A program made the translations under genes and the position numbers. Shown one piece after another: positions 2,918 through 26,233 of a stretch of 26,520 nucleotides of DNA; within the stretch, counting starts at the first letter, position 1, and each line of letters starts with the position of its first letter. The notes under the pieces were generated by a model, which was not told the DNA's origin, made no database searches, and saw only the letters and a program-made list of their open reading frames with translations. This stretch comes from a virus, in IMG/VR virus record IMGVR_UViG_3300038701_001497, positions 1 through 26,520 of that record. One strand, given 5' to 3'.

Positions 2918-4549
2918 ATGGCCGATGCAATTGCCGCGAAGATCGTCAAGCGATACGACCAGCTGGACGGCCAGCTGGGCAACTGGCACTCGCACTGGGA
3001 GGAGATCGCCGAGCGTGTTCTCCCCCGCTACTCCACGTACATGGCGGCGAATGCCGGGGATCAGCAGACCCGGGGCAACAAGCGCACGGAGAAGATGTTC
3101 GACGCGACCGCCGCGCTGGGCGTGGAGCGGTTCGCTGCGGCGATGGAGAGCATGCTCACCCCCCGCAGCCAGCGGTGGCAGCGACTGAAGCCGTCGGACC
3201 CGGCCCTTGCGAAGGACCGGGACACGAAGTTGTGGTTCGAGGAGGCGACGCGTCTCCTGTTCAAGTACCGCTACGCTCCGAAGGCGAACTACGCCAGCCA
3301 GCAGCACGAGGCGTATATCGGCCTCGGTGCGTTCGGCACGGCGGGCCTGCTCACCGAGCGCAACATGCGCTATGGCGGGCTGCGCTACACGGCGATCAAC
3401 CTGCGCGAGATCGCGTTCGACATGTCCGTGCAGGGCCACGTGGACACGGCCTACCGGAAGTACACCCTGACCGCGCGGCAGATACAGCAGCGCATCGACG
3501 GCGGCGTGTTCGACCGCGGGCCGAACGACCTCGACAAGCACCTGAAAGAGAACCCTGACAAGACGTGGATGATTGTCCACTGCGTGTGCCCCCGCGAGGA
3601 GGTGGACCGCGACCGGGCCGACTTCGCGGGCATGGACTTCGCGTCTTACTATGTCCTGTACGACGAGAAGACCGTCCTCAAGGAGGGTGGCTACAGCACG
3701 TTCCCCTACGCGATCAGCCGGTATGTGACCGGCCCGGGCGAGATTTACGGCCGGTCGCCGGCCATGCTCGCGCTGCCGTCCATCAAGGTGCTGAACGAGC
3801 AGAAGAAGACGATGCTCAAGCAGGGCCACCGGGTGGTGGACCCCGTGCTTCTGAGCCACGACGACGGCATCCTGGACACGTTCTCGATGCGCCCCGGGGC
3901 GATGAACCCCGGCGGGGTGAACGCGAGCGGGCAGCGCCTCGTACACGAGTTGCCGACCGGCAACCTCGCGGCCGGGCAGGAACTGATGGACATGGAGCGC
4001 AGCGTCATCAACGACGCGTTCCTCGTCACGCTGTTCCAGATCCTGGTCGAGACGCCTGCGATGACGGCGACCGAGGTGCTGGAGCGCGCAAGAGAGAAGG
4101 GGGCGCTGCTGTCCCCCACGATGGGACGGCAGCAGTCGGAAGCTATCGGTCCCATGACCGAGCGAGAAGTCGATCTCCTGCTCAAACAGGGGCTTCTCCC
4201 TCCCCTGCCTCCCGCTCTCGTCGAGGCGGAAGGGGAGTTCGAGATCGAGTACGACAGCCCCCTTACCCGGGCGCAACGCGCCGAGGAGGCCGCCGGTTGG
4301 TTGCGGACCCTCGAGGCGGCGATCGCACACGCGAATACGACGCAGGACCTGTCGGTGCTGGACCACTTCAACACCGACGTGATTTACCCGCAGCTTGCCG
4401 AGATCAACGCCGTGCCGCCCAGCTGGATGAACGGTGAGAAGGAAGTCGCGGCGCTTCGTAAGCAGCGCAGCCAGCAGCAGGACACGCAGCAGATGATCGA
4501 GGCGGCGCCGGCGGCGGCTGGCGTGATGAAACAGTTGATGCCGAACTGA
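2918..4549 (+). CDS. Portal (head-to-tail connector) protein
   Basis: A 543-residue protein of the podovirus head-tail connector family (Pfam PF12236, T7 gp8-like by comparison). The portal dodecamer fills one capsid vertex, starts prohead assembly with the scaffold, and is the channel for packaging and ejection. Family features in the N-terminal 100 residues are the RYDQLDGQ..NW..HW.EIA..VLPRYS segment and RTEKMFDATAA, followed by FAAAMESMLTPRSQRW. The C-terminal part has the helical ATEVLERAREKG...LSPTMGRQQSE region typical of the wing and crown end. Length is normal for the family. The stop overlaps the next start (TGATG). Confidence 0.9.
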   Translation: MADAIAAKIVKRYDQLDGQLGNWHSHWEEIAERVLPRYSTYMAANAGDQQTRGNKRTEKMFDATAALGVERFAAAMESMLTPRSQRWQRLKPSDPALAKDRDTKLWFEEATRLLFKYRYAPKANYASQQHEAYIGLGAFGTAGLLTERNMRYGGLRYTAINLREIAFDMSVQGHVDTAYRKYTLTARQIQQRIDGGVFDRGPNDLDKHLKENPDKTWMIVHCVCPREEVDRDRADFAGMDFASYYVLYDEKTVLKEGGYSTFPYAISRYVTGPGEIYGRSPAMLALPSIKVLNEQKKTMLKQGHRVVDPVLLSHDDGILDTFSMRPGAMNPGGVNASGQRLVHELPTGNLAAGQELMDMERSVINDAFLVTLFQILVETPAMTATEVLERAREKGALLSPTMGRQQSEAIGPMTEREVDLLLKQGLLPPLPPALVEAEGEFEIEYDSPLTRAQRAEEAAGWLRTLEAAIAHANTTQDLSVLDHFNTDVIYPQLAEINAVPPSWMNGEKEVAALRKQRSQQQDTQQMIEAAPAAAGVMKQLMPN

Positions 4550-5710: not shown

Positions 5711-6181
5711 ATGCCCGCACGTTTGGCACAAGACGAACTTTTTGTGACCCTCGAGGCCACGCCGACCATAGACACCTCCGCCTACGCGGCGGGGGATCTT
5801 ATGGGGAGCGCCGCTATCGAGTTGCCGCTGGCGGCAGCCCAGTCCAAGCGCGGGGCGATAATCCAGTCGGTCCTTTTGTGCGACGACGCCGCGCAGACGG
5901 CGGACATCGACGTCCTGTTCTTCGACGATGAGCCGGAGACGGATTTCTCGTCCATGGACAACGCTGCCGCGGATATCGACGACGCCGACCTGCACAAACT
6001 TGTCGGCTGTGTCTCGGTCACGGACTGGAAGTCGTTCAACGATAACTCGATGGGTCAGTCGCTGAACGTGGCGCTCCCCTTCGTGTTGGCCGCGGGGCCT
6101 CTGTGGGCGGTTCTCGTCAGTCGCGGCGCGGGGACCTATGCGGCGACAGGTCTTACGCTCCGCGTCGGCGTGATGGTCTGA
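5711..6181 (+). CDS. Putative head decoration/structural protein
   Basis: A 156-residue, mostly beta-strand protein with no signal or membrane segment. The pattern of a hydrophobic strand ending in DVLFFDDEPE, then FSSMDNAAADIDDADLHKLVG, is one I associate with structural proteins encoded beside capsid genes of many phages (strand, small-residue P, DNAA..ID.ADL). A capsid-binding or decoration role is inferred from that and from location between scaffold and capsid genes. GGAGG (5699-5703) precedes the ATG by seven bases. Molecular function not known. Confidence 0.55.
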   Translation: MPARLAQDELFVTLEATPTIDTSAYAAGDLMGSAAIELPLAAAQSKRGAIIQSVLLCDDAAQTADIDVLFFDDEPETDFSSMDNAAADIDDADLHKLVGCVSVTDWKSFNDNSMGQSLNVALPFVLAAGPLWAVLVSRGAGTYAATGLTLRVGVMV

Positions 6182-6185
6182 CGAC

Positions 6186-6380
6186 ATGCCACAGACAAAA
6201 GCAGCTAAAAAAGTCACCCAGGCCGAGCGCGACGCGTTCAACAAAGCCGTTGATGCGTTGCGCGCGGGCGAGAAAGTCCTCAAGGCCGGCCGACAGGATC
6301 TCGTGCAGGAGCGCGCGGCTTTTCAGCGGCGCGTGGAAGCTTTCGAGGCTCGCGTGGAGGAACTGGTTGCGGAGGCTTGA
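6186..6380 (+). CDS. Small coiled-coil protein
   Basis: A 64-residue protein that is nearly all charged helix, with repeated hydrophobic spacing from residue 13 to the end (AFNKAVDALRAGEKVL, then FQRRVEAFEARVEELV), predicting a coiled coil. The N-terminus is lysine-rich. It begins four bases after the upstream stop and is the last gene before the capsid promoter region. A prohead-assembly accessory role would fit its place but nothing in the sequence fixes a function. Confidence 0.6.
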   Translation: MPQTKAAKKVTQAERDAFNKAVDALRAGEKVLKAGRQDLVQERAAFQRRVEAFEARVEELVAEA

Positions 6381-6388
6381 AAAAAGTC

Positions 6389-6418
6389 TTGCAGCTTTTT
6401 GGCGAGCAGGTGTAGTAT
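6389..6418 (+). promoter_or_regulatory. Candidate promoter of the capsid unit
   Basis: TTGCAG (6389-6394), 18 bases, then TAGTAT (6413-6418), in the longest gap of the head region (6381-6564). The downstream leader of about 145 bases has short dyads: CACC/GGTG (6431-6442) and GCTGG/CCAGC (6458-6480). A strong AGGAGGG ribosome site precedes the capsid ATG at 6565. A separate promoter would fit the high demand for capsid protein. Motif-based only. Confidence 0.4.
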
Positions 6419-6564
6419 AACCGGGTAGCGCACCATCTGGTGTACGAACAGGCAACCGCTGGTAACCTGAAAAGGCCAGCACACTCTGCTTTAGTAGTTG
6501 CGGCCCCGGCTCCCGGGCAAGCCCTCTAGCTTTTGTTTTAACAGGACAGAAGGAGGGCAAATCC

Positions 6565-7431
6565 ATGTCCAACGAAATTCTCGACTGGTCAGTAATTGAC
6601 TATAAGTCGACTGTTGAGAGCCTGCTCCAACAGCGCGGCTCCAAATTCCGTATGTGTGTTATGGAAGACAGCTATACCGGCAAGTCCGGTAAGGCCGTCA
6701 ACCAGATCGGCCCGGTCATCGCTCAGAAGAAGACCACGCGCCACGCCGACACGCCGCTCATCGAGACCCCGCAGGACGCCCGCTGGGTGTACCCCGAGGA
6801 CTACGAGTGGGCGGACCTGATCGACGATCAGGACAAGCTTCGCATCATCGCCGACCCGACGTCGCCTTACGCGATCAACGGCGCCATGTCCATCGGACGT
6901 GCCATCGACGACGCGATCATCGCGGCGGCTACCGGCACGGCCAAAACCGGCGAAGACGGGGGCACGTCCACTGCGCTGCCCGCGGGCCAGACCGCCGCGA
7001 CTACCGCCGGCGGCATGACCATCGCCAAACTCCGCGAAGCCATGCAGCTTCTGCTCGCCGCAGAGGTTGATGTGGACAACGAACCGCTGTATTGCGCCAT
7101 CGGTGCACAGCAGCACGACGACTTGCTGGGCGAGACCCAGGCGGTCAGCCTCGACTACACCAACAAGCCGGTGTTGGTTGATGGCCGTATCAAGTCGTTC
7201 ATGGGCTTCAACTTCATCGACAGCCAGCGACTGGCGCTCTCGGGCACCGATCGCACGGCCATCTGCTGGGCGAAGTCCGGCCTTCACCTCGGAATGTGGA
7301 ACGACATCAACGTCAAGATTTCCGAGCGTGACGACAAGTCCTACGCGACACAGGTCTATGTCAAGGGCACTTTCGGCGCCACGCGGACGCAGGAAGAAAA
7401 AGTTGTCGCCATCACCTGCTCGGAGGCCTGA
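6565..7431 (+). CDS. Major capsid protein
   Basis: A 288-residue protein with features of the phage capsid family PF19821: an N-terminal S..V..Y..TVESLLQQRGS segment, an RHADTP.IETP.DARWV.P.DYEWADLID motif (about 54-90), then DPTSPYAINGAMSIGRAIDD. The later half has LVDGRIKSFMGFNFIDSQRL, the typical strand-turn of an HK97-fold A domain, and ends with SYATQVYVKGTFGATRTQEEKVV. AGGAGGG lies eight bases before the ATG, the strongest ribosome site seen here. The gene has its own candidate promoter and shares a terminator with the next gene. Confidence 0.9.
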   Translation: MSNEILDWSVIDYKSTVESLLQQRGSKFRMCVMEDSYTGKSGKAVNQIGPVIAQKKTTRHADTPLIETPQDARWVYPEDYEWADLIDDQDKLRIIADPTSPYAINGAMSIGRAIDDAIIAAATGTAKTGEDGGTSTALPAGQTAATTAGGMTIAKLREAMQLLLAAEVDVDNEPLYCAIGAQQHDDLLGETQAVSLDYTNKPVLVDGRIKSFMGFNFIDSQRLALSGTDRTAICWAKSGLHLGMWNDINVKISERDDKSYATQVYVKGTFGATRTQEEKVVAITCSEA

Positions 7432-7434
7432 TAG

Positions 7435-7893
7435 ATGGGTACCGTATATTCAGTCCAGAAAACGAAGTGGGACCAGGACACCCCCACCACGCGCATCAAG
7501 CCGAACGAGTTCAAAGGACGCGTTCGGGTGGCATACGCCAACTACGTCGCTGCGGCGGAACAGTCGGACATTCACATGTTCAACCTGCCCAATGGCGCGC
7601 GCATCCTCACCATGGAAGTCGCACACGCGGCCCTCGGTTCCGGCACCACGCTGGCTGTCGGCCACGCGGCCTACAACAACGCCGATGGCACCGCGGTTGC
7701 GGCTGACGTTGACGAGTTCAAGGCTGCCGCGGCTTCGACCAGTATCGCCGTCACGGGGGCTGCTCTCACGGAAGCCCTCGGTCGGCACACGGTCGTCGAT
7801 GCAGACGAGGACGGCATGCCGGTGACGGTGTCCCTTGCGGGCGCCAACGGCACCGGCGCGATCAGCCTCACCTGCACCTGGGTGCTTGACTGA
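7435..7893 (+). CDS. Putative capsid-associated structural protein
   Basis: A 152-residue protein beginning MGTVYSVQKTKWDQD, with a basic segment (NEFKGRVRVAYANY) followed by beta-rich, alanine-rich sequence with no cysteine or membrane helix. It starts three bases after the capsid stop with GGAGG (7423-7427) inside the end of the capsid gene, and ends immediately before a strong terminator. It therefore shares an mRNA with the major capsid protein, which suggests a high-copy partner such as a decoration or cement protein. This is inference from context; I recognise no named family. Confidence 0.55.
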   Translation: MGTVYSVQKTKWDQDTPTTRIKPNEFKGRVRVAYANYVAAAEQSDIHMFNLPNGARILTMEVAHAALGSGTTLAVGHAAYNNADGTAVAADVDEFKAAAASTSIAVTGAALTEALGRHTVVDADEDGMPVTVSLAGANGTGAISLTCTWVLD

Positions 7894-8712: not shown

Positions 8713-11007
8713 ATGTCCCGTGCCGCGCCGATCCAGAACAACTTCAACGGCGGTGAAGTTACCGATCTCATATACGGGCGCCCGGATCTCGACAAGTACG
8801 GGACGGGACTGGCGACCTGTCTGAATTTCATCCCGCTCATCCAGGGGCCGGTCGAGCGGCGCCCCGGTACCGGCCACATCGTCGAGGTGAAGGACAGCAG
8901 TAAAGCGGTGCGGGTGGTGCGGTTCGAGTTTTCGACCGAACAGGCCTACATCCTCGAGTTCGGCGACCAGTACGTCCGGTTCATCAAGAACCGGGGGCAG
9001 ATCATATCGGGCACCGCCGTGGAATTGGCGACGACGTATCTCGAAGCAGACCTGTTCCAGCTTCAGTTCTCGCAAAGTGCCGACGTGCTGTACATAACGC
9101 ACCCGAGTTACCCGCCCCGGAAACTGACCCGCACGTCTGACACTGCGTGGACGATCACCAATATCACGTTTTACGACGGCCCGTTTTTCAACACGAACGC
9201 GACCGACACCACGCTCACACTCGGCGGCACAACCGGGTCTGTCTCGGTCACGGCCTCGGCGATCGCGGGCATCAACGGCGACACCGGTTTCCAGACGACG
9301 GACGTCGGCCGGCTCATCCGCTGGGAAGACCCGGCGGGGAACTGGACGTATCTGACGATCACGGCGCGCACCAGCACGACGGTGGTCACCGCTGCTATCG
9401 ACGGCCCCGACGCTTCGGCGACCACAGCCACGACGGTGTGGCGCCTCGGGGTCTGGTCGGAGACCACCGGGTACCCCGCCGCTTCGACTTTTCACAAGAA
9501 CCGCTTGGCGTTCGGCGGCGCGACTGACACTCCCCAGCGGGTAGACCTCAGCCGCACCGGCGATTTTGAGAACTTCGCGCCCACGGACCTGGACGGCACT
9601 GTTCTCGACGACAACGCCGCCACCACGGACCTGTCCGCGGACACCGTGAACTCCATCCGCTGGATGGAGGACGATGAGAAAGGTCTCGTCGTGGGGACCG
9701 TCGGGGGTGAATGGGTTGTCCGTCCAGACGATAACGGCGGCGCGCTCACCCCCGGCAATATCTCACCCTCCCGCTCCAGTGCTTTCGGCAGCGCCAACAC
9801 CCGACCGGCCCGGGTCGGGCGGGTGCTGGTGTTTGTGCAGAAGGCGCTGCGGAAGTTGAGGGAACTCGCGTACGTCTTCGAGGACGACGGTTTCCGGGCG
9901 CCGGATATGACGCTGGTTGCGGAGCATATCACTGGGTCCGGGGTTGTTCAGCTTGCCTACCAGGCCGAACCCCAGAGCATCGTGTGGATGTGCCTGACCG
10001 ACGGCACTCTTATCGGGATGACCTACGACCGCGACCAGCAGGTGTTGGGCTTCCACAGGCACACTCTGGGGGGTTACAGCGATGCCTACAGCAATGCCGC
10101 GGCGAAGGTCGAGAGTGTTGCTGTGATCCCCAACCCAACAGGGACGGCCGACGAATTGTACATGGTCGTCAACCGCTATGTAGACGGCGGTACGGTTAGG
10201 TATATCGAGTACCTGAAGAGTTTTTGGGACCAGGACAACGACCTCGAGGACGCGTTCTTTGTCGACAGCGGCTTGACTTTGGACACCCCGATCACGATCA
10301 CCGGCATCACGCAGGCGGACCCGGGGGTTGTCACGACAGACGGTGCCCACGGGTTCAGCGACGGCGCGATCGTGCGCCTCAAGATGCCCTTCGGCATGAC
10401 CGAGGTGGACGGGAAAGTGTACAAGGTCGCGAATGGTACCTCCAACACGTTCGAATTGAACACGCGGTCTGACGCCGACGTGGACACCACGGGATTTACG
10501 GCGTATCAGACCGGCGGGGAGGTGCGCGAGCGGGTCACCTCGATATCCGGTCTCGACCACCTCGAGGGACAGACTGTTGCCATCCTGGCGGAGGGTTCTC
10601 CCGTGGCGCAGGAGGTCGTTAGCAGCGGTGCAGTTACGGTGGAGGAGGTGTCCAAGGCGCAGGTGGGTCTGCCCTACGTCTCAGACATCCAGACACTCCG
10701 GTACGACGCGGGCGCGCGGAACGGTACCTCTCAGGGTAAACTGCAACGCTTCAACCGTCTCATCATCCGCCTGTTCCAGACGGTTGGCGGGAAGGTTGGT
10801 CCCGATGCAGACACTCTCGACCCTCTGATTTACCGGGAGGGCGGGGATGCGATGGACACCGCGGTGCCGCTGTTCACAGGTGATGTTGAGGTTGAGTGGG
10901 ACGGCGAGTACAGTTCGGACAGCACCTTGTTGTTCCGGCAGGACCAGCCGCTACCCGCGACGGTTCTGGCCTTGATGCCGCATGTAGAGACGGAGGACCG
11001 CCAGTGA
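8713..11007 (+). CDS. Tail nozzle / tail tubular protein B-like
   Basis: A 764-residue protein opening with NNFNGGEVTDLIYGRPDLDKY and FIPLIQGPVERRPGT, the start shared by many podovirus tail-tube or nozzle proteins. The beta-rich body includes a long propeller-like middle (KNRLAFGGATDTPQRVDLSRTG, then VGTVGGEWVVRP). Residues about 526-606 (TDGAHGFSDGAIVRL, then VYKVANGTSNTFEL) look like the FCCH fold named from ubiquitin-activating enzyme E1, a small beta domain often inserted in phage tail proteins. The gene follows the adaptor with no gap and overlaps the next gene by four bases (GTGA). It probably forms the distal end of the short tail. Confidence 0.8.
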   Translation: MSRAAPIQNNFNGGEVTDLIYGRPDLDKYGTGLATCLNFIPLIQGPVERRPGTGHIVEVKDSSKAVRVVRFEFSTEQAYILEFGDQYVRFIKNRGQIISGTAVELATTYLEADLFQLQFSQSADVLYITHPSYPPRKLTRTSDTAWTITNITFYDGPFFNTNATDTTLTLGGTTGSVSVTASAIAGINGDTGFQTTDVGRLIRWEDPAGNWTYLTITARTSTTVVTAAIDGPDASATTATTVWRLGVWSETTGYPAASTFHKNRLAFGGATDTPQRVDLSRTGDFENFAPTDLDGTVLDDNAATTDLSADTVNSIRWMEDDEKGLVVGTVGGEWVVRPDDNGGALTPGNISPSRSSAFGSANTRPARVGRVLVFVQKALRKLRELAYVFEDDGFRAPDMTLVAEHITGSGVVQLAYQAEPQSIVWMCLTDGTLIGMTYDRDQQVLGFHRHTLGGYSDAYSNAAAKVESVAVIPNPTGTADELYMVVNRYVDGGTVRYIEYLKSFWDQDNDLEDAFFVDSGLTLDTPITITGITQADPGVVTTDGAHGFSDGAIVRLKMPFGMTEVDGKVYKVANGTSNTFELNTRSDADVDTTGFTAYQTGGEVRERVTSISGLDHLEGQTVAILAEGSPVAQEVVSSGAVTVEEVSKAQVGLPYVSDIQTLRYDAGARNGTSQGKLQRFNRLIIRLFQTVGGKVGPDADTLDPLIYREGGDAMDTAVPLFTGDVEVEWDGEYSSDSTLLFRQDQPLPATVLALMPHVETEDRQ

Positions 11008-11432
11008 ATATAATCGAGTACAAACCGGCGCACCTCCAGTCGATCGATTTGCAGGAGGGGCAGGCGTACCTCTCCAGCTGGGTCACACCCGACCTGGCCG
11101 AGGCGCTGGGCCGGTCGGGTTGGGCGTACACCGGCATGGACGGCGACACCCCGGTGGGGTGTGCAGGCGTCATCAACGTGTGGCAGGGCCGCGGGATCTG
11201 CTGGGCTTACCTGTCCGCGTCCCTGTCGTCGCACAGGTTTCTCGAGGTCCACCGGGCGGTGTCCAGGTTCCTCGAGACCTGTTACGTGCAGCGTCTCGAG
11301 ATGACTGTCGATTGCGATTTTGAGCAGGGACACCGTTGGGCAGAGATGTTAGGTTTCGAGATGGAAGCCGAGCGTATGCAAGCTTACCGACCTGACGGTG
11401 GCGACTGCGCGCTGTACGCGAGGGTCTTATGA
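11004..11432 (+). CDS. GNAT-like protein, T7 gp13-type
   Basis: A 142-residue protein, starting at the GTG that overlaps the nozzle stop (GTGA). The acetyltransferase-like fold is suggested by LAEALGRSGWAYTGMDGDTPVGCAGVI, the CWAYLSASL strand, and the late DCDFEQGHRWAEMLGFEMEA helix-strand that ends many GNAT proteins. T7 gp13 is a related small protein in the same place, needed for virion assembly. No classic Q/R-x-x-G-x-G/A acetyl-CoA loop is obvious, so it may have kept only the fold. A longer upstream start in the same frame exists, but it would overlap the nozzle gene heavily. Confidence 0.65.
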   Translation: MNIIEYKPAHLQSIDLQEGQAYLSSWVTPDLAEALGRSGWAYTGMDGDTPVGCAGVINVWQGRGICWAYLSASLSSHRFLEVHRAVSRFLETCYVQRLEMTVDCDFEQGHRWAEMLGFEMEAERMQAYRPDGGDCALYARVL

Positions 11433-14245: not shown

Positions 14246-15975
14246 TGGTCACTCCCTTGATCACCACCGCCCCGTCCAGTCTGGACTACCGGGTGTCCAC
14301 AGAGTTCACCGCGCCTCTGGTCGATGTTCTCGGGGCCGAGGCGTCCGAAGCATGGATACACTCCCCGATGTCGGCCATCGGCCGAACCCTCGAGTTGTCT
14401 CAAGCGGCGGGAGAGTACCGCCTGCCCGAGACGCGCGAAGGGCGCCGGGACGCCATCTATGGCGGCGAGATGGACTTCGTGCAGGGGACCGGCACCGGTT
14501 ACCACATGTCGCAGCAGGAAGCCTTGTCGGACGCGGACGCCGACCGGCTGAAGCTGAAGATACCCGTCTCGGGGATAACGCGCGGCGCGCTGGATATCCT
14601 GATCGACCGGAAGACCGAAGAGAACACCCGTAAAGATATCATGGCCCGCGCGCGAGGCGGTTTTGCCACCGGCGCTGCACGTCTCGGTGTCGGGCTTGGG
14701 GTGACGTTCCTCGACCCGCTGAACGTGGCGTCGGCCTTCGTCCCGGTTGTCGGCCCGGCGCGCGTGGCCACGGCACTGGCGCGGCAGAGCGGGCGGATAG
14801 GACGCGCGGGTGTGCGCGCCCGTGTCGGCGCCACCGAAGGCGCGGTTGGTGCTGCGATCATCGAACCGGTAATACTCAGCGCGGCGGCCGCGGACCAGGC
14901 CGATTACGATCTGCAAGACAGCATGTTGAACATTGCATTCGGCACCGTTGCCGGCGGCGGTCTCCACATGGGGTTCGGGGCCATCGGCGACAGCCTGCGC
15001 CGTCGTCGCATGGGACGCGCAGTCGAGGCGCTGGACCTCGCCGGGCACGAGGTCCGGGAAGAACTGGGTCGGTCGGCAATCTCCCAGATGGTCGATGGCC
15101 GACTGGTCGATGTTGAGGTCGTGGGAAACTTCACGCCGGTCAAGCCGGTGGATCGGCAGATCTACATCCCCGGTAAGGGGGAGCAGACGATCACGCAGGA
15201 CGCCGACGTTCTCGCGCGGACCATAAACCCCGACCTGATGCAACGGTTCGACCGTATCGAGCGGGAGAAAGCGGGGCTGCGTGTCGAGATCGAAGAGGGG
15301 AAAGACGCGCGCGCGGCGCTGGCCGAAGAGCAGGTTGCCGAGTTCGACCTCGAGATCGAGCGTCTCGAGGCCCGGCTCGAGGGCGCGACAAAGCGCAACC
15401 AGAAGAAATTGCAGAAGCGCATCGACGACGCAAACGTGGCCCGTGAGGACGTCCTGTCCTCTGTGCTGGCCCGCGACACCGACAGCATGGCACTCAAGCG
15501 ACAGAAGCTGCTCGCGCTCGACGCGCAGCAGCGTGACATGCTCCCCGAGGTCAACAGGGTGCGACAGGAGGCGCAGGCTCGGGCTGACGCCGAGGCGCGA
15601 ACGATCCCCGGCGAGGAGCCGTCGTTCCGGGTGGAACGCGCCTTCGAGGTGGACCGGGATTTCGACGCGGTCGCAGCTGCGGAGCGCACGTTCGACCCCG
15701 AGAGGGTGCGTCTGGCCGACCACGATGCTGCGCGAGAGGCGTTCGACCGGGTCCGACTGGCGGGCGATGATACCGACCCGGTGGCCCGCATCGACGAGGA
15801 AGCGGCCGCGACCCAGCAGGAATACGACCAGGCGCTGGAGCGCACCGGGCTAACCGACGAGGATATCGCGGGCATGGACCAGGACACGGCAGACGCAATG
15901 GAGTTGGTGGACGACATGACGACGTACCGGAAGGCACTGGAAGCTGGTGAGACCTGCATGGCGAGGCGTGGCTGA
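14245..15975 (+). CDS. Ejection protein with membrane-active segments (gp16-like N-terminal part)
   Basis: A 576-residue protein. ATG 14245 is preferred to an in-frame ATG at 14215 because GGAGG (14235-14239) is five bases upstream and the start overlaps the previous stop. Glycine/alanine-rich hydrophobic segments lie near residues 138-178, 193-217 and 228-247, fit for membrane insertion during ejection. From about 335 to 440 there is a strong coiled coil with many E, R and K (EFDLEIERLEARLEGATKRN). The position corresponds to the start of a T7 gp16-like protein, but no lytic transglycosylase motif is visible. It ends in TGATG with the next gene, which may supply the remaining part of a split gp16. 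Confidence 0.6.
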   Translation: MVTPLITTAPSSLDYRVSTEFTAPLVDVLGAEASEAWIHSPMSAIGRTLELSQAAGEYRLPETREGRRDAIYGGEMDFVQGTGTGYHMSQQEALSDADADRLKLKIPVSGITRGALDILIDRKTEENTRKDIMARARGGFATGAARLGVGLGVTFLDPLNVASAFVPVVGPARVATALARQSGRIGRAGVRARVGATEGAVGAAIIEPVILSAAAADQADYDLQDSMLNIAFGTVAGGGLHMGFGAIGDSLRRRRMGRAVEALDLAGHEVREELGRSAISQMVDGRLVDVEVVGNFTPVKPVDRQIYIPGKGEQTITQDADVLARTINPDLMQRFDRIEREKAGLRVEIEEGKDARAALAEEQVAEFDLEIERLEARLEGATKRNQKKLQKRIDDANVAREDVLSSVLARDTDSMALKRQKLLALDAQQRDMLPEVNRVRQEAQARADAEARTIPGEEPSFRVERAFEVDRDFDAVAAAERTFDPERVRLADHDAAREAFDRVRLAGDDTDPVARIDEEAAATQQEYDQALERTGLTDEDIAGMDQDTADAMELVDDMTTYRKALEAGETCMARRG

Positions 15976-18561: not shown

Positions 18562-19602
18562 ATGACGATCACCACCTCGACCAACCGCGTGGACTTCGCC
18601 GGGAACGACATCACGACGGCGTTCGCGACCGGGTTCAAGTTTTACGCCGAGACCGACTTGACGGTTATCCTCGTCACGGACAGCACCGGGGCCGAGGCCA
18701 CGCAGGTGCTGACGACAGATTACACGGTCACGGGCACCGGCCTCGACGCAGGCGGCACCGTGACGATGAACACCGCCCCGGCCACGGGCGAGACGCTGGT
18801 CATCATACGATCGCAGGGGTACACCCAGACGCTCGACTTGGTCGAGAACGACGCGTTCCCTTCGGAGAGTGTCGAGGAGCAGCTTGACCGGACGGTGGTC
18901 ATGGCGCTCCAGCTTCTTGACAAGATCGGCAGGTCTGTGCAGCTTCCCGACGGCTTCACCGACACGTTCGACACCACCCTCCCCGCGGATCTGGACACCG
19001 CCTCTGCCGCGATCGTGGTCAACGACGCCGCAGACGGTTTCGAGATGAAGACACTGGTGGCGCTCGACGCGCTGGGCTTGCCGCTGTCTTTCGGAAACGG
19101 CGGAACGGGCGCGTCCTACGCCAATCTTGCTGCGCTCCTCGCCGGCTGGGGCATGGAGATCGGCACGGACATCCAAGCCTATGACGCCGACACGGCGAAA
19201 ACAGACGTGGCGAATACGTGGACCGCGAACCAGACCTTTGCGGACAACCAGGTTATTCGTGCGCTCCTGAAGGACACGGCGGAGGCGGTCAACGCCATCG
19301 GCGCCATAGGCGGCGGTACGCAGGACATCGACTACACGCTCGGCCAGTGCGTAACTGCCACGGTGGACACCTCGACCACGACCTTCACGTTCTCGAACCC
19401 GCCCGCGTCGGGCCGGAAGGGCAGCTTCGAGTTGCACTTGACGAACGGCGGGTCGCAGACGGTCAACTGGCCCGCCTCCGTGGATTGGGCGGGCGCCACC
19501 GCTCCGACCCTGACCTCCTCGGGTGTCGATGTTCTGGTGTTCGTCACGACCGACGGCGGCACTACGTGGCTCGGGTTCACCGCCGGTCTGGACATGTCCT
19601 GA
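18562..19602 (+). CDS. Tail fibre protein with T7 gp17-type N-terminus
   Basis: A 346-residue protein. Residues about 8-130 (NRVDFAGNDITTAFATGFKF, then a GGTVTMNTAPATGETLVIIR segment and ESVEEQLDRTV) match the N-terminal fibre domain of T7-like phages, which fixes the fibre to the tail. The C-terminal half is beta-rich (FGNGGTGASYANLAALLAG, then FTFSNPPASGRKGSFEL), probably a short shaft or adaptor end. AGGAG (18550-18554) is seven bases upstream of the ATG. The following beta proteins may attach to it, so this could be an adaptor rather than the receptor-binding tip. Confidence 0.8.
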   Translation: MTITTSTNRVDFAGNDITTAFATGFKFYAETDLTVILVTDSTGAEATQVLTTDYTVTGTGLDAGGTVTMNTAPATGETLVIIRSQGYTQTLDLVENDAFPSESVEEQLDRTVVMALQLLDKIGRSVQLPDGFTDTFDTTLPADLDTASAAIVVNDAADGFEMKTLVALDALGLPLSFGNGGTGASYANLAALLAGWGMEIGTDIQAYDADTAKTDVANTWTANQTFADNQVIRALLKDTAEAVNAIGAIGGGTQDIDYTLGQCVTATVDTSTTTFTFSNPPASGRKGSFELHLTNGGSQTVNWPASVDWAGATAPTLTSSGVDVLVFVTTDGGTTWLGFTAGLDMS

Positions 19603-21968: not shown

Positions 21969-22400
21969 ATGATCAGTCAAGCAGCCAAGGGACTTGCGGA
22001 GGGTGTCGCCGGGCCGTTGTTCGGGTTGATCGACAACCTGTTCACCTCCGACGAGGAGCGGGCAGCAGCCAAGGTCAAGCTTCTCGAGATGGAGCAGCGC
22101 GGTGAACTCGACGCGACAAAACAGCAGCTTTCCGCCATCTTGGCCGAGGCCAACAGCGACGACCCGTGGACCAGCAGAGCGCGGCCGACGTTTCTTTACC
22201 TGATTTACACCATCATCCTGATGTGCGTCGGCGGCGCCATCATCGGGATCTGGTGGCCGGACCATGTGGCGACCGCCGCCAGCAACCTGACTAATCTGTT
22301 GAATGCCATCCCGGAAAGCCTCTGGTGGCTGTTCGGCGCCGGGTATCTCGGCTACACGGGCGCCAGGTCCATGGACAAGTGGCGGAAGGTCGGGCGATGA
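21969..22400 (+). CDS. Holin of the GTA three-helix type
   Basis: A 143-residue protein with charged helix at residues 25-62, then DPWTSRARP (65-73), a conserved hallmark before the first membrane segment (74-97). A second hydrophobic region is at 114-133 (ESLWWLFGAGYLGYTG), ending with ARSMDKWRK. This matches the holin family described from gene transfer agent release (GTA_holin_3TM, PF11351). It would form inner-membrane holes at lysis time. ATG 21969 was chosen for AAAGGA seven bases upstream. It overlaps the next gene by four bases (ATGA). Confidence 0.85.
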   Translation: MISQAAKGLAEGVAGPLFGLIDNLFTSDEERAAAKVKLLEMEQRGELDATKQQLSAILAEANSDDPWTSRARPTFLYLIYTIILMCVGGAIIGIWWPDHVATAASNLTNLLNAIPESLWWLFGAGYLGYTGARSMDKWRKVGR

Positions 22401-24691
22401 CCTTTGATCTGACATGGAGCGGTGAGAACGAGTTCAACCGGGCGCAATCCCGTGCGGGGGTTGTCTGGGACGGTTCCGCGCTCGGCATGGGTCTGCGCGG
22501 GCCGAACACGTTTCAGAACGGCGGCGCCTGGTCGTGGTTCGGCGATCCGCGGGCGGTTTATTCGGGCGGTATAACGTATGTCGGCTGGACGGACAGCGCG
22601 GCCCAGATCGGTATTTCGAGTTTCAACCACAGCACGGGCGAGCGTAAATCCTTCGTCCTCAAAACCGGGATCACGGAAGACGACCACGCCAACCCCGGCA
22701 TTTGCATACTGGACGACGGCAAGGTTTTCGTCACGTATTCCGAGCATAACGGTGCGGATGTCTTCTGGCGTATCTCGACCAGTGCCGGAGATATTTCAGC
22801 ATGGGGGTCTGAGACGGCTCTAACGACCGGCGGCAACGACAACACCTATCCGTCGCCGTTCCAGACCGATACCGGCCGCATCTATATTTTTTATCGCGAT
22901 GACGGGCACAACCTCGTCTATCAGTACACCGACAACGACGGTTCGACCTGGAGCGGTGAAACCGATCTGGTCACCGACGGCACGGGCAGCGATTTCGTTT
23001 ATTTCAAGATCGGCTTCGACGGAACCGACAGGTTCGATCTCGGTCTTTCTTATGCCGATCAGTCGGGAAGCCGGGAGCATGTCCGTCATGCTTATTTCGA
23101 GGGCGGTACGCTGTACGAGGCCGACGGAACGTCTATCGGTTCCAGTGCGGATCTGGACAGCATCCCCAAGGTTTACGACAGCGACGGCGGCGGGGAGGAT
23201 GCATGGATATGGGATTGCTCTCATAACGGCGGAAACGTCCAGCTTGCCTTTGCCCGTGTTCCGAGCGGGTCAGACCACACCTATGGTTACGCGCGCTGGA
23301 ACGGTTCGACATGGGACGTCAATGCAAGCGTCGTCTCGGCAGGAGAGCCGATCTACAACAGCAATCTTTCGGGTCAGGAAGAATACTCGGGCGGCATGAG
23401 CCTGAACCATGCGGCTGATGGAGAGATGTACCTTTCGATCAACAGCCCCGGCCCCGACGACGCCGCGATTTACAAATACACGACAGCCGATGATGGGGAC
23501 TCGTGGTCGTCTACGCTGGTGCAGGCGGCGTCTCCGGGAAACCGTGAGAACATCCGGCCCTATGTGCCGTGGAGCCTGACCGGGCCACATGCCGATCTGC
23601 CGGTGGTGTGGTTGCAGGGTATCTATCACGACTTCGAGGCCGGCGAGTTTCTCATGGCTCCGGTCTCCGCGGCGGAACTCGCGCGCCCGACGGGGATCGA
23701 AGCGAAGATGTCGGCGTTTTGGGATTTCTCCGAGGCGTCCGGGAATATTGATGAATCGACGCGCGGTGATATGCCGGGGACCGCCACGGCGCTGACATAC
23801 GAGCAGACAGGACCGTTCGGTTACGACGCGATCAGTTTTAACGGCACGACGTCGAAGATCATTACCGCGTCCGGCTATAGCTACAACGGGAACAGCAATT
23901 GGGCGCTGTTCATGTGGATCAAGACGTCGGTAACGTCGGTCAATAATTACCTGTTCGGCGGGCAGAACACGTCGGCATTCTATTCCCGGCTCGATACCAG
24001 CGGGAAATTCCGCGTTGCCTTCGGGGGCACAACCGTCGTCGATACTGGCGATGCCGTAAACGATGGCGAGTGGCACCGTGTCGGCCTGATCTGTGACGGC
24101 GACAACGGACGGCTCAAAGCGTCGGTCGATGGTGCGATCGTGGGGAATATCGCGCAGAGCGTTGCCGGTATGGTTGGCCCGCTGCATCTGGGCTACGCGC
24201 TGAACTTCGGTACGCCTGAATCGTTCGACGGCGACATCGCAGTGCCGGCGCTCTATCTGGACGAACTTCTATCCGATGCCGACGTGCAGGCCGATTACGA
24301 TGTTTTCTGGGACGCCGCTATTCTGGAATCGGCAGTTCAGGCATCCGACGCAGCCGGAGAAGGTGTGACGGCGACGATCGTTGCCAGCCTGCCGGCCAAT
24401 ACCTCGGCCAATCTGACGGTGTATTCCGACACGACGCCTGCCGGGCAAACGCTCGCGGTGGCGAACGGCACGAACGATTTGGATTTTGCGGATATCGACG
24501 CCGCGGATGGCGATGATATCTGGTGGGAATGGGAACCAGCCCGCACCGTTGAGAGTGCATCGCCGACGCTGACGTCTGTTCGCCTGGTCGGCGGCGCGGA
24601 AAGCGGCTCGGCCTCTGCTGCAGCGCCCCCCGGTCAAGTAGCGACATGGCGTCGTCGGTTCGGGCGCTCAGGGGGTTTGCGAAAACGATGA
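22397..24691 (+). CDS. BNR_4 beta-propeller plus LamG lectin protein, candidate depolymerase
   Basis: A 764-residue protein with the start at ATG 22397, overlapping the holin stop (ATGA). Residues about 42-410 resemble BNR_4 propellers: GGAWSWFGDPRAVY (42-55), YVGWTDS, EDDHANPGI (95-102), VTYSEHNG (112-119), and repeated strand-turn units such as DGSTWSGET. The same fold occurs in ulvan-type polysaccharide lyases (PL24/PL25 and relatives), so cleavage of a host surface glycan is possible. Residues about 437-640 look like a concanavalin/LamG lectin (AFWDFSEASG, FNGTTSKIIT, DGEWHRVGLICDG). The rest is a small beta domain and a basic tail. Catalytic residues could not be assigned, and no virion-attachment segment is evident. 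It could be a tail-spike-like receptor binder without activity. Confidence 0.65.
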   Translation: MTFDLTWSGENEFNRAQSRAGVVWDGSALGMGLRGPNTFQNGGAWSWFGDPRAVYSGGITYVGWTDSAAQIGISSFNHSTGERKSFVLKTGITEDDHANPGICILDDGKVFVTYSEHNGADVFWRISTSAGDISAWGSETALTTGGNDNTYPSPFQTDTGRIYIFYRDDGHNLVYQYTDNDGSTWSGETDLVTDGTGSDFVYFKIGFDGTDRFDLGLSYADQSGSREHVRHAYFEGGTLYEADGTSIGSSADLDSIPKVYDSDGGGEDAWIWDCSHNGGNVQLAFARVPSGSDHTYGYARWNGSTWDVNASVVSAGEPIYNSNLSGQEEYSGGMSLNHAADGEMYLSINSPGPDDAAIYKYTTADDGDSWSSTLVQAASPGNRENIRPYVPWSLTGPHADLPVVWLQGIYHDFEAGEFLMAPVSAAELARPTGIEAKMSAFWDFSEASGNIDESTRGDMPGTATALTYEQTGPFGYDAISFNGTTSKIITASGYSYNGNSNWALFMWIKTSVTSVNNYLFGGQNTSAFYSRLDTSGKFRVAFGGTTVVDTGDAVNDGEWHRVGLICDGDNGRLKASVDGAIVGNIAQSVAGMVGPLHLGYALNFGTPESFDGDIAVPALYLDELLSDADVQADYDVFWDAAILESAVQASDAAGEGVTATIVASLPANTSANLTVYSDTTPAGQTLAVANGTNDLDFADIDAADGDDIWWEWEPARTVESASPTLTSVRLVGGAESGSASAAAPPGQVATWRRRFGRSGGLRKR

Positions 24692-25229: not shown

Positions 25230-25433
25230 TTATGACTTGTCGGCGTCCCGTCCCGTTTCGCTGTTGAGAATCTTCGTTGTCCTGTCATCGATATGGGAAA
25301 GGTCGCGACCGTTCTGATACTGAACCTGCCAGGTATCCAGCGCCGCCTCCAGTTCTTCGATGCGGGCCTTGTTCTTTTCGTTCTCGATCGCGTGCAAGTC
25401 GCACCTGCGGCAAAAAGTTCCTTTGATGTTCAT
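25230..25433 (-). CDS. Small CxxC coiled-coil protein
   Basis: A 67-residue protein. C8 and C11 form a CRRC pair, then H14, followed by a charged helix (ENEKNKARIEELEAALDTWQ, about 17-36) likely to coil. Only one cysteine pair is present, so a full zinc finger would need a dimer or His ligands. Its ATG overlaps the TGA of the upstream sorting-signal gene (ATGA, 25430-25433), which suggests coupled expression and a possible shared task. No family recognised. Confidence 0.55.
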   Translation of the reverse strand: MNIKGTFCRRCDLHAIENEKNKARIEELEAALDTWQVQYQNGRDLSHIDDRTTKILNSETGRDADKS

Positions 25434-25903
25434 TTCCGTTCCTTCCTGATAAACAAAACCCCAAGCGCAAGCAAACCCGCCCCCGCTGGCGCTGGCACCG
25501 ACACCGCATCGAGCCAGCCATACGTCCCGCCGCCGCTTTCACCCGGCGCGGTATAGGTGAACGTCCCGTCCGTCTGGAAATTGAACAGCGTCGATAACCC
25601 CTGCGCGAAGGCAAAAGCGGTGAAAGGTCCGAGATTGCCCGCTGCGTCGACCTGGAAGAACGACAGGCGCGGGCCGAAGCTACCTTCCTGCAATGTGATG
25701 CCGTCCCATAGGCCGAGCGTGACAGGGCCGCTGCGGGCGTGTTGTGGCGTGTTGGGCGTGATCGTCTCGAATTGCCATTCGGCGGTGTATCGCTGGTCGC
25801 CGTCCCGTTCCATGTAGAACACGGGATAGGCGCGGGCCGATGCGGCAACGGCGAGCGATGCGACAATGATCGCGGCCACGAAAAGCGCGTTCTTGAATTT
25901 CAT
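25430..25903 (-). CDS. Secreted protein with a VPxPAG (PEP-CTERM-like) sorting tail
   Basis: A 157-residue protein. Residues 1-25 form a Sec signal peptide: MKFKNALF, a hydrophobic A/V/I core, then SARA before YPVFYMERDG. Residues 26-130 are polar, beta-rich and without cysteine. From residue 136 the protein ends with VPAPAG, a short hydrophobic run (AGLLALGVLFI) and the basic tail RKERK. Motif, membrane run and basic cluster at the very end are the three parts of PEP-CTERM/VPLPA-CTERM signals, which exosortases process for surface display or export. The tail is slightly short. GGAGGG precedes the ATG by nine bases. No exosortase gene is in the window, so host enzyme would be used. The core has no recognised function. 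Confidence 0.7.
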   Translation of the reverse strand: MKFKNALFVAAIIVASLAVAASARAYPVFYMERDGDQRYTAEWQFETITPNTPQHARSGPVTLGLWDGITLQEGSFGPRLSFFQVDAAGNLGPFTAFAFAQGLSTLFNFQTDGTFTYTAPGESGGGTYGWLDAVSVPAPAGAGLLALGVLFIRKERK

Positions 25904-25921
25904 CCGTCTATTCCCTCCAAA

Positions 25922-26233
25922 TCAGGAATATTGATTTCGTGTCCAGGCTTCCCAATCGAAGCCGCAGACACATTTCGAAGGCCACCCACCTCCGTTCGGT
26001 TCCGGTATTGGGATTCTCTCGCAATCAGGGCAAACAGGCTCCTCGATTTTGATCCTCGTGCCGGGCGGAAATATGTCCGCGCCGAGTATCAGCGTTTCCT
26101 CGATTCCGACGTCGCCCATGTCTCCCTCACAGGAGGTTTTCCATAGATGCTTTATCTGGTCGAACTGATCACCGTCGTAACAGTCGGGCGAGAGTTCGGC
26201 TCTCATTGTCTCTCGGCGTTCAACGTCTTTCAT
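25922..26233 (-). CDS. Small phage protein with a zinc-ribbon-like cysteine set
   Basis: A 103-residue protein. The C-terminal half contains VCPDCE (C-x2-C) and later CVCGFDWEAW (C-x-C), a four-cysteine set able to bind zinc. Between them is a proline-rich loop (PIPEPNGGGWPS). The middle ETLILGADIFPPGTRIKIEE followed by CPDC is a form I associate with small phage-encoded proteins of unknown task. It is in the minus-strand run, 18 bases before the sorting-signal gene. An AGGTGA site lies close to the ATG. Confidence 0.6.
   Translation of the reverse strand: MKDVERRETMRAELSPDCYDGDQFDQIKHLWKTSCEGDMGDVGIEETLILGADIFPPGTRIKIEEPVCPDCERIPIPEPNGGGWPSKCVCGFDWEAWTRNQYS

Follow-up and report, generated by a model that had tools for sequence, protein, structure and literature searches.

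Does a small gene near the end of a phage genome fragment encode an exported protein with a C-terminal tail destined for the exosortase of the host? An initial annotation, made by reading the DNA alone, proposed that it does, describing a secreted protein with a signal peptide, a beta-rich core and an end made up of VPAPAG, a hydrophobic run and RKERK, as in exosortase substrates. The window, that is, the whole stretch of DNA analyzed here, is the entire record IMGVR_UViG_3300038701_001497 (26,520 bases).

Genomic setting

The window is a podovirus-type late region, comprising a terminase (746–2275), a head–tail connector portal (2918–4549; PF12236 1.3e-102, phrog_332), a tail protein (8713–11007; phrog_376), a conserved tail-fibre-like gene (18562–19602), a holin-like gene and a BNR_4-domain protein (22325–24691, plus strand; BNR_4 6.6e-22 and a weak laminin-G match), the latter a probable tailspike acting on surface polysaccharide. 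A gene for a GNAT-like acetyltransferase (10896–11432, plus strand) lies between the tail and internal virion genes and is kept in most relatives at 45–63% identity. The record is probably a fragment of a longer phage genome; several long relatives are ∼37 kb, so ∼11 kb of early genes may be absent from it.

The open reading frame (ORF) in question, 25430–25903 on the minus strand, is found at the right end of the window, as one of five small ORFs that form a minus-strand run opposite in orientation to the late genes. The upstream ORF of this run (25922–26233, minus strand; 103 aa) belongs to the phage family phrog_24515 and has homologs in Vibrio and Morganella phages, tying the module that contains ORF 25430–25903 to phages. 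The next ORF (25230–25433, minus strand; 67 aa, with a CxxC motif) has a weak phrog_27254 match. A scan for promoters and terminators around ORF 25430–25903 produced signals no more often than in shuffled sequences.

A genuine gene encoding a putative exported protein

ORF 25430–25903, encoding 157 aa and ending in the VPAPAG...RKERK tail, is a genuine gene, as indicated by the reading frame itself, codon usage and third-position GC. A Shine–Dalgarno-like GGAGG (25914–25918, minus strand) lies 10 nt 5' of its ATG; at the other end, its stop codon and the start codon of the next ORF on the same strand overlap as ATGA (25430–25433). GC at the three codon positions (59/51/74) matches that of the other genes of the phage, and a codon score trained on the structural genes of this phage and compared over six frames is +0.09 in this frame and −0.22 or lower in all five others. 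Because only this frame scores positive, we consider a longer overlapping ORF (25285–25866, minus strand; 193 aa, Arg/Ser-rich) to be spurious. The ORF lies at the coordinates given in the initial annotation.

Residues 1–25 (25829–25903, minus strand), MKFKNALFVAAIIVASLAVAASARA followed by Y, look like a Sec signal sequence, with predicted n-, h- and c-regions and an AxA site (ARA/Y) according to hydropathy and the AxA rule, and with a helix at residues 2–21 in an AlphaFold model, in line with the signal peptide previously proposed. There is no Cys anywhere in the 157 residues, and the signal hence lacks a lipobox Cys. Residues 26–135 (25499–25828, minus strand) form the core, predicted from its composition to be periplasmic, in which hydropathy reveals no segment of membrane length and membrane strength between the signal and the tail. 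The cores of PEP-CTERM proteins have few basic residues, little Cys and raised Thr, Ser and Asn (PMC1569441). The present core (Lys 0%, Arg 3.6%, Cys 0%, Thr 11.7%, Gly 13.5%, Ser 5.4%, Asn 2.7%) fits in its low basic content, lack of Cys and high Thr; Ser and Asn are not raised. The beta-rich fold that had been suggested for it gained no support from single-sequence AlphaFold modelling of the protein (pLDDT 37). The core has no Pfam or PHROG match and no significant PDB match; all PDB sequence matches to the protein have E > 0.2 and were treated as chance.

The C-terminal end (residues 136–157; 25433–25498, minus strand) reads VPAPAG-AGLLALGVLFI-RKERK, the arrangement described earlier, and hydropathy peaks at this end of the protein. 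In terms of geometry, VPAP is followed by 13 uncharged residues and by RKERK-stop at the extreme C-terminus, comparable with the motif, ∼14-residue hydrophobic stretch and 5-residue basic end of PEP-CTERM tails (PMC1569441).

Comparison with curated sorting-tail models

For the isolated 23-residue tail, TIGR02595 returns 14.3 bits (cut-off 16) and PF07589 14.4 bits (cut-off 20.7), these PEP-CTERM models being the sole families reported for it in NCBIfam and Pfam. They are not reported at all for a 32-residue tail, nor does the whole protein have a PEP-CTERM match in the two collections, and a direct TIGR02595 search of the window record gave no match at E ≤ 10. The VPLPA-CTERM model TIGR03370 matches neither the whole protein nor its tail. 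Positive controls, comprising textbook-type tails and real tails from virus contigs, clear the model cut-offs. The near-invariant Pro-Glu-Pro of PEP-CTERM is absent, the tail reading PAP. With matches below cut-off or absent, the protein is not a PEP-CTERM member by curated criteria, and the above-threshold match to these models by which the initial annotation proposed to check its reading was not obtained. The sole whole-protein match in NCBIfam and Pfam, to lolB (E 0.039, 13.5 bits; cut-off 59.6), was dismissed as chance. Home-made models built from VPEPATWAM and VPLPA tails also fail on this tail; since they recognize each other's class unreliably and are too narrow to tell genuine tails of the other class from background, their failure carries little weight.

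The protein shares with PEP-CTERM proteins (TIGR02595/PF07589), the proposed substrates of exosortases of the EpsH family, a signal peptide without internal transmembrane segments, a motif followed by ∼14 hydrophobic residues and a basic end at the extreme C-terminus, and an orphan core with few basic residues and no Cys. It differs in having PAP for PEP, in coming within reach of the TIGR02595 cut-off only as an isolated tail, and in its setting, a phage gene run in place of a single-gene operon.

Sorting tails in other virus contigs

Scanning IMG/VR viral contigs for VPEPATWAM identified 45 contigs; in ∼42 of them an ORF closes with a PEP-CTERM tail, and most of these ORFs also encode a signal sequence. 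The proteins tested pass the NF035944 and TIGR02595 cut-offs. Among the contigs examined closely, which are those named here, PEPxxWA-CTERM genes were found after phage DNA polymerase and primase genes (L123:12681–13334, plus strand), beside a phage head-closure gene, Hc1 (L138:4677–5357, plus strand), beside a phage tail-fibre gene (L139:10498–11214, minus strand) and near a DNA polymerase gene (L145). A number of the remaining contigs may represent host DNA within prophage records. The PEPxxWA-CTERM proteins of L123, L157, L121, L145, L164 and L126, which derive from different samples, have similar N-termini; a search of the collection of phage records yielded none of this type.

A VPLPA pattern search led to IMGVR_UViG_3300032138_001046 (G039; loci L297/L298), a 27.6-kb podovirus contig encoding the small and large terminase subunits and a phrog_332 portal 24% identical to that of the window. 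G039 carries three proteins with a signal sequence and a VPLPA-CTERM tail near its tail and terminase genes (6009–6665, 6861–7511 and 14856–15509, all minus strand), one of them directly before the terminase genes. Two of the three pass TIGR03370; the third, a paralog with the tail SPVPLPAGLPLFAGALGLMMVLKRYRGRS, was assigned to no family by whole-protein hmmscan. This shows that curated models miss likely real sorting-tail variants, and model failure is consequently weak evidence against the tail in the window. The window protein resembles the VPLPA-CTERM class in having VPxPAG at the start of the tail, and G039, with three such proteins, has a portal of the same family; it differs in lacking a TIGR03370 match, in a hydrophobic stretch ∼3 residues shorter and in the absence of any core similarity found. 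Sorting-tail proteins do occur in virus contigs, and as an example of phage-borne ones G039 is clearer than the window. The broader idea that phage-borne proteins bear exosortase-type tails draws more support from G039 and the VPEPATWAM contigs than it does from the window.

Rarity and distribution

The VPAPAGxxLL motif by itself is common by chance, its DNA pattern matching 108 stretches in viral contigs. None of the pattern-matching viral loci retrieved has it as a C-terminal sorting tail, and no other VPAPA-type sorting tail was found in viral contigs. The full layout (a signal sequence, PxP, 11–20 uncharged residues and a terminus with three or more basic residues) is confined to the window ORF among 5,770 distinct ORFs read in six frames from 2.36 Mb of viral DNA, a rate that is indicative only since the rule was written after the sequence had been seen. 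A hydrophobic-plus-basic C-terminal end of any sort is found in 5 of the 5,770.

No homologs of the protein were detected in phages, IMG/VR viral contigs, GTDB genomes or plasmids. The window portal finds 80 IMG/VR loci at 60–83% identity, and neither a relative of the protein in 37 of the portal-matched records, mostly fragments, nor a similar tail in the portal-relative loci was seen. Conservation among the relatives does not extend to the region on the right of the tail fibre, and the gene is an orphan accessory gene; the occurrence in related phages that the initial annotation had asked about was accordingly not found in those searched. Most PEP-CTERM proteins have no homologs beyond the tail itself (PMC1569441), so orphan status is to be expected of such a protein, and it also means that there is no comparative support for conservation of the tail.

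The portal relatives are metagenome contigs, the only genome match being L117 (JAERTI010000028.1), whose portal is 72% identical to that of the window and which is binned in a Candidatus Uhrbacteria metagenome-assembled genome (MAG), either through a binning error or because the host is an unexpected one. This MAG contains no exosortase gene. As a host indicator via prophage relatives, this one contig is uninformative.

Alternative explanations and a proposed function

The main rival to an exosortase substrate is a plain type I bitopic inner-membrane protein, with a signal peptide, a periplasmic domain and an unprocessed anchor whose RKERK obeys the positive-inside rule, the VPAPAG being incidental; such a protein could work on the periplasmic side of the membrane, with superinfection exclusion as one possible role. 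We regard this as quite possible, if short of an even chance. A hydrophobic stretch followed by a basic end is required of every protein of this kind, the predicted topology is shared with type I bitopic phage envelope proteins such as superinfection-exclusion proteins, and the sub-threshold PEP-CTERM scores and the absence of the gene from relatives are in keeping with it. However, the stretch is short and rich in Gly and Ala, it has at the membrane border a VPxP motif for which an ordinary anchor has no need, and the layout is very rare among phage ORFs. We know of no VPxP sorting-type motif in type I bitopic phage envelope proteins.

A GlyGly-CTERM (rhombosortase) or other C-terminal tag in place of an exosortase tag is suggested by the SGGG upstream of the C-terminal helix. 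This is highly unlikely and was rejected: the SGGG lies ∼26 residues before RKERK, compared with 22 residues for an entire GlyGly-CTERM region, leaving it too far from the helix with a charged residue and VPAP in between, and the whole protein matches neither the GlyGly-CTERM nor the MYXO-CTERM models. A unimolecular spanin, an outer-membrane lipoprotein with a C-terminal inner-membrane helix that functions in lysis, is more improbable still: hydrophobic N- and C-terminal segments flank a periplasmic domain and the holin-like gene is only a few kb from the ORF, but the gene is on the strand opposite to the late genes and the missing lipobox Cys rules out a spanin of the known form.

We favor, at about even confidence, a membrane-anchored periplasmic protein that is plausibly a substrate of the host exosortase. 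What is established is that the gene exists and in which frame it is coding, that its product has N-terminal signal features and that the tail has three parts. The coding signals, the tail geometry, a core composition that mostly fits, a layout unique among 5,770 viral ORFs and the precedents in other virus contigs argue for an exosortase substrate; scores below every model cut-off, PAP instead of PEP, absence from relatives and the lack of any other VPAPA-type tail among the viral contigs searched argue against it. Of the reading first put forward, the export signal and the C-terminal geometry held up, whereas two of the outcomes named there as refuting it, concerning the model cut-offs and the relatives, went against it. 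The tail is best described as an atypical, unproven sorting tail. We predict that the protein would be exported by Sec via its N-terminal signal and anchored in the inner membrane by the C-terminal helix. In a host with an exosortase, VPAPAG at the outer (periplasmic) face of the membrane would most likely be recognized in place of PEP or VPLPA, after which the helix would be removed and the core passed to the envelope or exopolysaccharide layer. Whether processed in this way or left as an unprocessed bitopic protein, it may serve to change the surface of the infected cell or to block superinfection by other phages; surface display and altered adhesion are further possible effects.

Implications

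Known exosortase substrates are cellular proteins with links to exopolysaccharide and to the formation of flocs. A full-text search of the open literature, judged mostly by titles and abstracts, returned no paper with a title or abstract on phage-borne exosortase or PEP-CTERM substrates. It is conceivable, although we consider it rather doubtful, that several kinds of phage have, each on its own, orphan secreted proteins with a tag for the host exosortase, the VPAPA variant among them, and thereby reshape the surface of cells that they infect or lysogenize. If phages do use the exosortase pathway, a viral protein could sit on the surface of biofilm-forming bacteria, which would have a bearing on superinfection, adhesion and phage–biofilm ecology, and would give phage genes that are otherwise orphans a function open to testing.
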